A DNA stretch of 44,882 nt from Pseudomonadota bacterium (GTDB lineage: Bacteria > Pseudomonadota > Gammaproteobacteria > Burkholderiales > Thiobacillaceae), in assembly GCA_021849595.1 (NCBI GenBank), contig JAJZSR010000004.1, positions 1 through 44,882 of the forward strand. Reading direction: 5' to 3'. The position numbers and the translations under genes were made by a program. The notes under the pieces were generated by a model. It ran no database searches, was not told where the DNA came from, and saw only the letters and a list, made by a program, of their open reading frames with translations. This document shows, in pieces, positions 41,569 through 44,882 of this stretch (the stretch's first letter is position 1; every line of letters begins with the position of its first letter).

Positions 41569-42486
41569 TTGAATCCCGCCCAGCCTTCCCGCCCAGCCCG
41601 TGCCCTGCTGGGCCTGGCGCTGCTCTCCCTGATCTGGGGGTACAACTGGGTGGTCATGAAATCCGCGCTCGCCGACGCCGGGGCACTCACCTTCACAGCG
41701 CTGCGCTCGGCGCTGGGTGCCCTGAGCCTGTTCCTGGTCATGCTTTGGCAGCGCAAACCCCTGGGTCTCACGCGCCCCGCCGCGACACTGACCCTTGGCG
41801 TGCTGCAGACCGCCCTGTTCGTGGGATTGACCATGGCGGCGCTCATCCACGGCGGCGCCGGCAAGACCGCCGTGCTGGTGTACACCATGCCTTTCTGGGT
41901 ACTGTTGCTGGCCTGGCCGCTCCTGGGCGAGCGCTTGCACGGTCTGCAATGGCCCGCGGTGGCGCTCGCCTGCGCGGGCCTAGTGCTGGTTCTGGCGCCC
42001 TGGCGCCCCGCCGTCAGCCCAACGAGCGAGATGCTCGCCATCGTTGCCGGGCTGGCCTGGGCACTCGCGGCGCTGCAGGCCAAGCACATGGGGCGCAGCC
42101 AGCGCTTTGACTTGCTTTCGCTCACCGCCTGGCAGATGGCCCTGGGCTCGCTGCCGCTGATCGCCCTGACCCTGGCGCTGCCCGAGCCGCCCATCCATTG
42201 GACGCCCTACTTCATCGGCGCGTTGCTCTACAACGTCGTTCTGGGCAACGCCCTGGCCTGGTGGCTGTGGCTGTACGTGCTGCAGAACCTCCCCGCGGGC
42301 GTCGCCAGCCTCGGCACCCTGGCCATACCGGTGATAGGCGTCTTGGCGGCCTGGCTGCAACTGGGCGAGCAGCCGGGCGAGGTCGAAATCGCCGGCATGG
42401 CCCTCATCGGCACCGGCCTCGGGTTGCTCGCTCTGGCCGCCATGCGGCGGCGCGCCGTTGCCCCGGTCGAAACGCCTGCGGAGTGA
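41569..42486 (+). CDS. EamA/DMT-family transporter
   Basis: A 305-residue inner-membrane protein with about ten hydrophobic helices in two EamA repeats: LALLSLIWGYNWVVMKSAL and MAALIHGGAGKTAVLVYTMPFW in the first, GLAWALAALQAKHM and GVASLGTLAIPVIGVLAAWL in the second. DMT exporters move metabolites or amino acids; position next to ilvB makes an amino-acid exporter conceivable but unproven. The start is a TTG at 41569 with no evident ribosome site, and no ATG lies nearby in frame. Confidence 0.85.
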   Translation: MNPAQPSRPARALLGLALLSLIWGYNWVVMKSALADAGALTFTALRSALGALSLFLVMLWQRKPLGLTRPAATLTLGVLQTALFVGLTMAALIHGGAGKTAVLVYTMPFWVLLLAWPLLGERLHGLQWPAVALACAGLVLVLAPWRPAVSPTSEMLAIVAGLAWALAALQAKHMGRSQRFDLLSLTAWQMALGSLPLIALTLALPEPPIHWTPYFIGALLYNVVLGNALAWWLWLYVLQNLPAGVASLGTLAIPVIGVLAAWLQLGEQPGEVEIAGMALIGTGLGLLALAAMRRRAVAPVETPAE

Positions 42487-42532: not shown

Positions 42533-43375
42533 CTACTGGGACTGGCCTGCGCCTGTACCGGCAGAAACGATCAAGTTCGGCACATAGTGGCAGGCCAGGG
42601 TCCGCGACGGCCGCCCGCCTACGGCCTCCACATGCTCGCCGTAATGAACCAGCATGTCTTGCGGTACCAGCACGACCACTCTCGCGCCGGCAGGTTTGCC
42701 GTCCAGATGAATCACCGCTCGCAGATTGTTAAGATACGCAGGGTCGATTTTTCCATTTACTTCCCTCTGCGTCCGGTCAAGCAACTCAAGCGCTTGCGGC
42801 CGGGAAAGAAATCCAACGATCTGTCCGCCAAAAGGCGCGGACGGCCCAAACGACATCCCCATAGGCCCTCCTGCACCGCAATTCTCGTCCGCATCAGCGA
42901 CTTGCTGCGGGATGCCCGTGCTCTGCGAAATGGCGCCCTGCTCCTGCGGCTCCCGCGCAGGTGATGGCAACGCCACGGCCGAAGCGGCCGGCGCCGCCTC
43001 GACGCCGTGCTCCGCACGGGTAGGCGATTCCTGCAGCCCATGCTTGATAATTGCCGCTGTCTGAGTTTTCTCGGGTGCCTGAGGCAGCCGGGCCGACCCC
43101 GCCGCTTGCGGGGTTATGCCGGGCGGGATGCGCCCCATGTCCTGCTGCGCAGCAGGATGCGAAAGAGTAACACCTGCATTCCCCATCACCCTGCCCGATG
43201 TTAAGGGTGGAGAAGCCGGGTGGGCTCCATACCACCGCCAGGGAGGCAAAAACAACACCACCGCCGATATGGCGAGCGCCGCCAGAAACACAAGGCGCCA
43301 TGCTGATGAATGCTTCCACAAGTAGCCAACGCTACCGAGCAAGGACGTTTCTTTCGAGGGCTCAGGTTGCAACAT
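42533..43375 (-). CDS. Single-pass membrane protein of unknown function, partner of the AAA+ gene
   Basis: A 280-residue protein I do not recognise. A short cytoplasmic N-terminus is followed by one membrane span (about 27-44, VFLAALAISAVVLFLPPW), a long Pro/Ala/Gln-rich low-complexity stretch (about 50-170), and a compact C-terminal domain (about 185-280). That domain contains LELLDRTQREVNGKIDP, AVIHLDGKPAGARVVVLVPQ, VHYGEHVEAVGGRPSRT and CHYVPNLIVS, with one cysteine near the end. The layout suggests an inner-membrane anchor with a periplasmic reach. The ATG at 43375 is four bases after the AAA+ stop, so the two form one unit. Confidence 0.72.
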   Translation of the reverse strand: MLQPEPSKETSLLGSVGYLWKHSSAWRLVFLAALAISAVVLFLPPWRWYGAHPASPPLTSGRVMGNAGVTLSHPAAQQDMGRIPPGITPQAAGSARLPQAPEKTQTAAIIKHGLQESPTRAEHGVEAAPAASAVALPSPAREPQEQGAISQSTGIPQQVADADENCGAGGPMGMSFGPSAPFGGQIVGFLSRPQALELLDRTQREVNGKIDPAYLNNLRAVIHLDGKPAGARVVVLVPQDMLVHYGEHVEAVGGRPSRTLACHYVPNLIVSAGTGAGQSQ

Positions 43376-43379
43376 GGAA

Positions 43380-44714
43380 TCAGGCCCCCTGTGGGCACGC
43401 AGCCGCCAGCGCCTGCACGGCGCCTTCTTTCTCCACCAATGCGACACAACGCGCCCCTTGCTGCTTGGCGACGATGAGGGAATCGGCAATCGACTCTTCG
43501 ATTGCCCGCACCAAATCGCGCGAAGAGGCTGCATCTGCGAGCTTCTCCTGGCGCTGCATGAGCGTGTACAGCAGTTCCGGGTCTATCCCCTGCTCGGCCA
43601 CTTCCAGCCCATAATTGCGGATCATTTTTTCGATCTCCAGGGCCGTCACGCGCGCCACATCCAAACCGCTCAGGCGGGCAAAAACGAAAATACGGTCAAT
43701 GCGGTTGAGGACTTCGGGTGCGAATCCCGCCTCCTTCAGCGCGTTGGTGGCGGCGCGCCGCATCTCGTCGGAGTCGTGCGCATATTGCCGCCTGATGTCT
43801 TCCAACTCATCTGAAGCGGCATTGGTCGTCAGCACAAATATCGCACGTGCGGTGGATATCTGCCTGCCATCGGACGCCTCAGTAACAAAGCCATCGTTCC
43901 AGGCAGTCAGAAACCGCTTGTGCACCTCGGGATCGGCCTTTTCGATTTCATCCAGAAGCACGATGGCGTCCGGCGTATCTCGCAGGCTGGCCGTGAGCTT
44001 GCCGTAGGTATTCGATCCCACATAGCCCTTCGGCGAGCCGAACAACGCCGTCGCCCCCATACCCCTTGCCAACTGGGTCATATCAAAATGCAGGAGCTTG
44101 CGGCCAAGCGCAACGGCAAGCACTTTACCGAGATACGTCTTTCCGGTGCCTGGAAAACCAGCGAACAAAAACACCCCCACCGGCTTGCCGCGCTGCTGAA
44201 GGGCAAGGCGTCGGCGAATTTGCGCTGCCAAGTCATCGCATATGGCATCCTCGCCGATGACTTTGGATTTGAGCGTCGCAGCCAGGGCCGCGGCATCGAT
44301 GAAAACCGCCTCTGCATTCTGGCCAAGACGGTTTTCGAGCGCCTGGCGATTGGTAAGGCGATCCAGTATGTCCATGATCCAACGTCTCCGAGTAATCCAA
44401 CGCGGCAGTTTCCCCGCCACCGCTAATACACCCACCACCACCCAAAGCCAGAGGAAACCGGCCAAACCTCCCACCCATAGCCACCACTGCCCACCCCGCT
44501 TACCCACTGTTTCGGTCCAGCGCCCGGCAGCGGCCCACGCATGGGGAAGAAAATGTTCAGCCGCCCGTAAAAGCGCAAGCGCCATTACGAGGAATATCAG
44601 CAGCGGTAAGTAGCGGTTGAAAACCGCAAGCATGCGCTCCAAGTCGCTATACGTATCCACAAACAAGCGGGAAAATCTTATTCGCCGCAGGACCTCGGGA
44701 GTTGGATGCCGCAA
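43380..44714 (-). CDS. Membrane-anchored single-ring Clp/Hsp100-type AAA+ ATPase
   Basis: About 444 residues: two membrane spans (about 35-52 and 76-100) followed by one AAA+ module of the ClpA/ClpB second-ring type. Walker A is GFPGTGKT (186-193), the substrate-gripping pore loop GYVG is at 230-233, Walker B is IVLLDEIEKA (251-260), sensor 1 is at TTN (296-298), the arginine finger is Arg338 in LNRID, and sensor 2 is Arg399. Every catalytic feature is present, so it should be an active unfoldase or remodeller. There is no Clp N-domain, first ring or evident ClpP-docking loop. The start is uncertain: TTG at 44714 gives the longest frame; ATG at 44633 would still keep both spans. Confidence 0.82.
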   Translation of the reverse strand: MRHPTPEVLRRIRFSRLFVDTYSDLERMLAVFNRYLPLLIFLVMALALLRAAEHFLPHAWAAAGRWTETVGKRGGQWWLWVGGLAGFLWLWVVVGVLAVAGKLPRWITRRRWIMDILDRLTNRQALENRLGQNAEAVFIDAAALAATLKSKVIGEDAICDDLAAQIRRRLALQQRGKPVGVFLFAGFPGTGKTYLGKVLAVALGRKLLHFDMTQLARGMGATALFGSPKGYVGSNTYGKLTASLRDTPDAIVLLDEIEKADPEVHKRFLTAWNDGFVTEASDGRQISTARAIFVLTTNAASDELEDIRRQYAHDSDEMRRAATNALKEAGFAPEVLNRIDRIFVFARLSGLDVARVTALEIEKMIRNYGLEVAEQGIDPELLYTLMQRQEKLADAASSRDLVRAIEESIADSLIVAKQQGARCVALVEKEGAVQALAAACPQGA

Positions 44715-44802
44715 ACCGGTTTAGCGAACCACATTCGGCAGATAAGGGCCTCAAGATGTAGATTTTTTATCATATTATTGAGAATTACGTAAATAGATGA
44801 CA
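44715..44802. other. AT-rich gap upstream of the AAA+ gene
   Basis: This 88-base gap is markedly AT-rich compared with the rest of the window, especially 44758-44800. It holds a possible minus-strand -10 TATGAT (44769-44774), but no convincing -35 and no terminator. The composition break supports the view that the right-end genes are acquired. Confidence 0.4.
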
Positions 44803-44882
44803 TCAAACTGGCAGTTCGGCCTGTTTCCAGAAAGCGGCGATCAGCTTGGGTCGGTGCTGCATGGACTTGAGCCGACGCCGGG
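44803..44882 (-). CDS. C-terminal end of an unidentified gene, cut by window edge
   Basis: Reading the minus strand from the right edge, one frame gives about 26 codons ending in SMQHRPKLIAAFWKQAELPV and then TGA at 44803-44805. The residue mix looks like a real basic, helical C-terminus, and it sits 88 bases before the AAA+ start on the same strand. No family can be named from so little; other frames over these 80 bases are also open, so the call is tentative. Confidence 0.35.
   Translation of the reverse strand, partial: RRRLKSMQHRPKLIAAFWKQAELPV

Follow-up and report, generated by a model that had tools for sequence, protein, structure and literature searches.

A membrane-tethered, single-ring Clp-type AAA+ protein and its single-pass partner with an exchangeable outer domain: a candidate proteolysis-independent unfoldase

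FtsH, a AAA+ protein of the classic clade, carries two N-terminal membrane helices and a fused metalloprotease, and is accompanied by HflK and HflC, single-pass partners with periplasmic domains. Torsin, together with LAP1 or LULL1, pairs a single-ring Clp-like ATPase with a single-pass membrane partner. Msp1/ATAD1, again of the classic clade, has one helix and extracts proteins from membranes without degrading them; it has no dedicated periplasmic partner. To our knowledge, dedicated membrane-anchored Hsp100-type unfoldases with periplasmic partners of their own have not been described in bacteria, and no description of a membrane-anchored Clp/Hsp100 protein with exchangeable periplasmic partners was found in the open-access literature searched, the coverage of which was partial. 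Here we analyse a two-gene locus that appears to have this architecture. It lies near the right end of the window, the whole stretch of 44,882 nucleotides that was analysed, which is contig C9 of a draft genome (G000; 2.63 Mb, 229 contigs, 91% complete); the right end of the window is the end of the contig.

As judged from its sequence, the AAA+ protein is a membrane-tethered, single-ring protein of the Clp/Hsp100 D2 type. Its open frame on the minus strand extends up to TTG 44714 (43383-44714, 444 aa), and the residue numbers used for this protein follow that reading. The TTG chosen in the initial annotation probably lies too far upstream: homologues (about 400-430 aa) begin to align close to an ATG at 44633, the probable start of a gene of 417 aa (43383..44633, minus strand). 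The residues that had been listed as necessary for ATP-driven threading are all confirmed, namely Walker A (186-193; 44136-44159), the GYVG pore loop (230-233), Walker B (LLDEIEK, 253-259), the arginine finger R338 and sensor 2 at R399. Together with sensor 1 they lie in a Clp D2-type ring encoded at 43383..44282 (minus strand), and an alignment of 32 members shows Walker A, a GYxG pore loop, Walker B, both sensors and the arginine finger to be invariant. The proposal that two membrane helices stand in place of the Clp N-domain and first ring was also borne out. Hydropathy places transmembrane helix 1 at residues 31-49 (44568..44624, minus strand), a segment that is hydrophobic in nearly all relatives, and helix 2 at residues 81-99 (44418..44474, minus strand), and there is a single AAA+ ring. 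A basic stretch, PRWITRRRW, comes after helix 2 and is probably on the cytoplasmic side.

An HMM search with the AAA+ core, recommended earlier as a check, returned the Clp second-ring family AAA_2 (Pfam, E=7e-32), and placing the protein in a known conjugation or secretion ATPase family was not supported; Torsin was a sub-threshold Pfam match. The best NCBIfam matches were to the second ring of ClpA (147 bits, cut-off 993) and of ClpB (145 bits, cut-off 1232), and the TssH model gave 122 bits (cut-off 885). With one ring only and scores far under these cut-offs, the protein falls outside the ClpA/ClpB/TssH class 1 proteins, and an AAA_2 core with Walker A and B, an aromatic pore loop, sensors 1 and 2 and an arginine finger places it among those of the Clp/Hsp100 D2 type. 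The nearest solved structures to the core are the second rings of ClpE, ClpC and ClpB, and identity to plasmid-borne Clp proteins is about 30-35%. The two N-terminal transmembrane helices ahead of the ring are a trait of the FtsH type; the HExxH zinc metalloprotease is absent, as the protein stops after the small domain, and the FtsH model scores just 10 bits. A ClpP-type tripeptide ([ILVM]G[FLIM]) between sensor 1 and the arginine finger is absent from 29 of the 32 sequences, including that of the window; the other three relatives have a match there, which is not conserved. Architecture and conservation together support a predicted unfoldase that is membrane-anchored, independent of ClpP and provided with a dedicated adaptor.

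The candidate adaptor is encoded 4 bases downstream of the AAA+ gene on the same strand (42533..43375, minus strand; 280 aa). One helix at residues 25-43, a linker rich in Pro, Ala and Gln and a compact C-terminal domain had been ascribed to this protein, and all are present; the topology of the single-pass protein is probably N-in/C-out. A juxtamembrane LWKHSSAWR segment and the transmembrane helix together occupy residues 19-43 (43247..43321, minus strand), and a related segment is found in partners of all outer-domain types. Basic residues lie just N-terminal to the helix, and the alignment reveals a conserved pair of cysteines, C164 just ahead of the outer domain and C262; both features fit a periplasmic location of the outer region. 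The outer domain, of about 95 residues, was modelled with AlphaFold2 from six sequences as a small beta-barrel with one helix (mean pLDDT 80, about 90 over the core). The resemblance to OB folds is weak: the best Foldseek matches of the barrel include OB folds (ribosomal S12, EutN/CcmL), none with E <0.001, and VIA-align gave Z values of 6-7.5, below 8, to EutN/CcmL, IF1, RsgA and the OB domains of ribosomal proteins and proteasomal ATPases. On the basis of the model, VIA-align and the alignment, we assign this domain with moderate confidence as a periplasmic OB-like beta-barrel (residues ~181-274; 42554..42835, minus strand). The partner as a whole matches no Pfam or NCBIfam family above cut-off.

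We scanned 84,980 species genomes and found 36 further loci, whose AAA+ proteins are about 45-71% identical, in Alpha-, Beta- and Gammaproteobacteria, Verrucomicrobia and one Rokubacteria MAG. The AAA+ family is rare and patchy. It occurs in 1 of 117 genomes of the window's own family, in 1 of 399 of the order and in 2 of 398 of the phylum, and in 4 of 144 genomes of Paraburkholderia, the genus of one of the loci (L010). In every one of the 36 loci the gene directly 3′ of the AAA+ gene encodes a single-pass protein, five of these partners being under the helix threshold of our script and read as single-pass by inspection of the sequence. The initial annotation had made its pairing of the two genes depend on such co-occurrence, and the pairing stands. 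A plasmid search with the AAA+ protein gave one close relative only (Microvirga pMVF16-3), and the same search with the partner gave no match; most of the 36 loci look chromosomal.

The partners share an N-terminal LWxxAPxWR motif, or a variant of it, and the helix; they differ in the outer domain, which is OB-like, cadherin-like, made of Sel1 repeats, of two unnamed types or nearly missing. The ~95-residue domain of the window recurs in four loci (L008, L009, L011 and L025), the Burkholderia/Dyella group has an outer domain of ~250 residues, and partners from Accumulibacter and Methylomonas have a longer, partly related form. Sel1 repeats are found in most partners from Alphaproteobacteria (Pfam Sel1 E=6e-15), and no other outer domain scanned passed the Pfam/NCBIfam cut-offs. 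In the two Mesorhizobium loci (L015 and L016) the outer domain is cadherin-like by our reading of the sequence, with no Pfam family above cut-off. In Microvirga the whole partner is 61-78 aa long and the outer domain is nearly gone. At the Microvirga loci L027, L028, L030, L032 and L034 the partner consists of the membrane helix and a short tail, and a gene of ~134 aa, putatively ASCH-like, immediately precedes that of the AAA+ protein. At L011 (3746-5568) one AAA+ gene has the partner gene behind it in triplicate, in tandem.

Outer-domain type tracks the AAA+ clade: on a maximum-likelihood tree of the AAA+ proteins a minimum of 8 changes is needed, compared with a mean of 24.9 for shuffled labels. 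The cadherin-like type sits in one supported AAA+ clade with two OB-like members, so the outer domain has changed on a motor that stayed the same.

A third gene (~200-260 aa, single-pass, with a conserved C-terminal domain) forms part of the operon in 24 of the 36 loci; it lies directly upstream in nearly all carriers and downstream of the partner in L031. Its domain was modelled with pLDDT >90 as a probable periplasmic Ig/FN3-like beta-sandwich, for which Foldseek and VIA found weak Ig/FN3-like sandwich matches in the PDB (Z <5), and it belongs to no family among the Pfam and NCBIfam models scanned. Each of four control genomes gave one copy of the third gene and the six genomes of the window's clade, including the window's own, gave none, a count that involves one genome at 91% completeness and some other drafts. 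The lack of this gene across the clade indicates that the two-gene form is a real variant rather than a truncation in the window alone.

A third gene had also been annotated in the window itself, ending 88 bases upstream of the AAA+ gene. Its stop is present at 44803, but the frame is the tail of an IS-like repeat and not a member of the operon. The repeat, of ~100 bp (44774..44873), recurs in the same genome at the ends of two other contigs, C114 and C158, and a 72% copy lies in contig C107. By direct reading, the annotated gene consists of the final 25 codons of a truncated reading frame in the repeat (RRRLKSMQHRPKLIAAFWKQAELPV, stop; 44803..44880, minus strand). It resembles the 3′ end of an insertion-sequence transposase gene, and its motif suggests a C-terminus of the IS630 type. 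The IS fragment had no match in the plasmid search. The repeat at three contig ends probably caused the assembly break.

Two congeners show the gene order without the pair. Both have the same EamA transporter gene, identified with Pfam and located in the window at 41569..42486 (plus strand), followed directly by a gene for a membrane protein that we take, from its sequence, to be of the RDD type. The window's genome has the partner, the AAA+ gene and the IS-like repeat after EamA, and contig C158 opens with an end of the same repeat and continues into the RDD gene. The pair is thus part of an insertion with the EamA gene at its left border, and from the gene order in the congeners we infer that C158 follows C9; the assembly gap conceals how large the insertion is as a whole. 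The AAA+/partner pair has a G+C of 0.60-0.62, the EamA gene one of 0.70. In C158 the repeat and the RDD gene are separated by ~190 bp (~83-276; L003) that are without counterpart in one congener (G004) and mark the far edge of the insertion.

The AAA+ gene may give rise to a second product. An internal ATG (M114; 44373..44375, minus strand) is preceded ten bases upstream by an SD-like GGAG, and methionine is kept at this position in nearly all members, L034 and L026 being without it. The verrucomicrobial AAA+ genes of L035 and L036 start exactly at this conserved ATG. At both loci (L035 5512-7598, L036 9812-12009) there are two adjacent AAA+ genes, the upstream one divergent and the other starting at the internal ATG, and a hetero-hexamer of the two products is possible. 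SD-like pairing of -6 kcal/mol or lower was calculated for 24 of 31 sites, compared with 11% for random codons and 9% for other Met codons. When tested against synonymous recoding, the signal gave p=3e-6 in the Sel1 clade, a weak 0.01 in Microvirga, and non-significant values in the window's clade (combined p=0.12) and in the Burkholderia type (0.42); since the compared sequences are related and not independent, these p values overstate the evidence for an internal start. A soluble second AAA+ product is plausible from these signals, with moderate support in Alphaproteobacteria only.

We consider the chances about even that the pair is a proteolysis-independent, inner-membrane unfoldase or extractase of the Clp type that is steered by periplasmic domains. 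The constant segment of the partner would dock onto the membrane helices or the ring of the AAA+ protein, and the outer domain, OB-like here, would sense or bind a periplasmic or envelope ligand. Engagement of the ligand would position or activate the AAA+ hexamer to extract its target, either a membrane protein or a complex's cytoplasmic tail, from the membrane or from the complex. By analogy, extraction would proceed as with FtsH-HflKC or Msp1 but without proteolysis. Translation from the internal ATG might add untethered subunits, one gene then supplying membrane-bound and soluble ring members. We give the same even chance to the division of labour in this scheme, with sensing or binding of an envelope ligand left to the outer domain and extraction of membrane proteins to the ring; the near absence of an outer domain from Microvirga partners is hard to reconcile with obligatory periplasmic sensing. 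A wider generalization, possible but doubtful, is that the loci form an undescribed, horizontally mobile family with tethered and soluble subunits from one gene and interchangeable periplasmic receptors on a constant transmembrane adaptor, in effect an ATP-driven puller that the cell can re-aim at different signals from the envelope.

The same data can be read in other ways. A short N-terminal tail and a helix that stay constant while the outer domains are exchanged resemble a shared pull-tag, and the partner could itself be the substrate, its cytoplasmic tail being threaded by the ring so that the partner is extracted or turned over and a periplasmic sensor or adhesin is reset. The tandem partner copies in L011 agree with such a role. 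Turnover would, however, require another protease, as there is no ClpP loop, and genetic coupling cannot separate a substrate from an adaptor; we regard this reading as unlikely. It is also conceivable that an ordinary cytoplasmic Clp disaggregase has been tethered and that the partner is merely its anchor, as the Microvirga partners, almost only a membrane helix, and a core nearest to D2 of ClpA, ClpB and ClpC would suggest. We find this quite improbable, since two helices of its own make an extra anchor for the AAA+ protein redundant, and the outer domains stay folded and clade-specific, that of the window with a conserved Cys pair.

The initial annotation was right to suggest a membrane-tethered unfoldase with a periplasm-reaching partner, as the co-occurrence in every relative supports; the roles in defence, conjugation or secretion that it offered fared less well. 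In a defence system the outer domain or the membrane helices would sense a phage or mobile element, and the motor would trigger membrane damage or remove a phage protein. The patchy, horizontally moved distribution is in keeping with this, swapped outer domains recall arms-race modularity, and the AAA+ core has weak PADLOC matches to DolB and PDC-M37B. Those matches, however, reflect the generic Clp core (56-75 bits, versus 147 to ClpA), and the partner and the third gene match no PADLOC defence model. There is no effector domain, few defence genes lie nearby, and the survey of 77 neighbour genes found no family for defence, secretion or mobility that recurs, the immediate neighbours in relatives being diverse and mostly metabolic or housekeeping. 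Searches of phage and viral collections matched generic Clp proteins only, the best 80 IMG/VR matches being no closer than these. A defence role is thus without positive support, and we judge it distinctly unlikely. Membrane anchoring and the occasional plasmid location in Microvirga would suit an accessory ATPase of a conjugation or secretion apparatus, but no T4SS, T2SS or T6SS cluster recurs beside the AAA+ loci. With a single isolated T4SS coupling-protein match among the 77 neighbour proteins, unrelated neighbours and mostly chromosomal loci, service to such an apparatus is highly improbable.

We return to an extractase steered from the periplasm as the preferred reading. If it is correct, envelope sensing would be linked to cytoplasmic protein extraction without proteolysis, the outer domains would be a natural plug-in set of receptors on one motor, and the locus would provide a clean test case for mixed tethered and soluble hexamers from a single gene. 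No library family searched (Pfam, NCBIfam, PADLOC) names the two-gene unit as a whole: the ring is of a known kind, and a membrane-spanning single-ring Clp protein with exchangeable periplasmic partners fits none of these families. Dodola DolB and PADLOC PDC-M37B likewise place a Clp-like AAA+ protein in a small operon; identity with Dodola (DolA/DolB) was rejected, as only core residues 141-303 match and the partner has no PADLOC match. With the second ring of ClpA, ClpB and ClpC the protein shares the AAA_2 core, the GYVG pore loop and a sensor 2 located in the small domain at the C-terminus, but it is built of one ring, lacks an N-domain, D1 and the ClpP tripeptide, and has two membrane helices. 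Unlike Torsin, the ring is on the cytoplasmic side, supplies its own arginine finger and aromatic pore loop and belongs to a protein that spans the membrane. FtsH with HflK and HflC has the same layout of two helices and a cytoplasmic ring with single-pass partners bearing periplasmic domains, whereas here the ring is of the Clp type, there is no protease and the partners are unrelated. With Msp1/ATAD1 the pair would share its proposed mode of action, the extraction of proteins, without degradation, by a ring anchored in the membrane.
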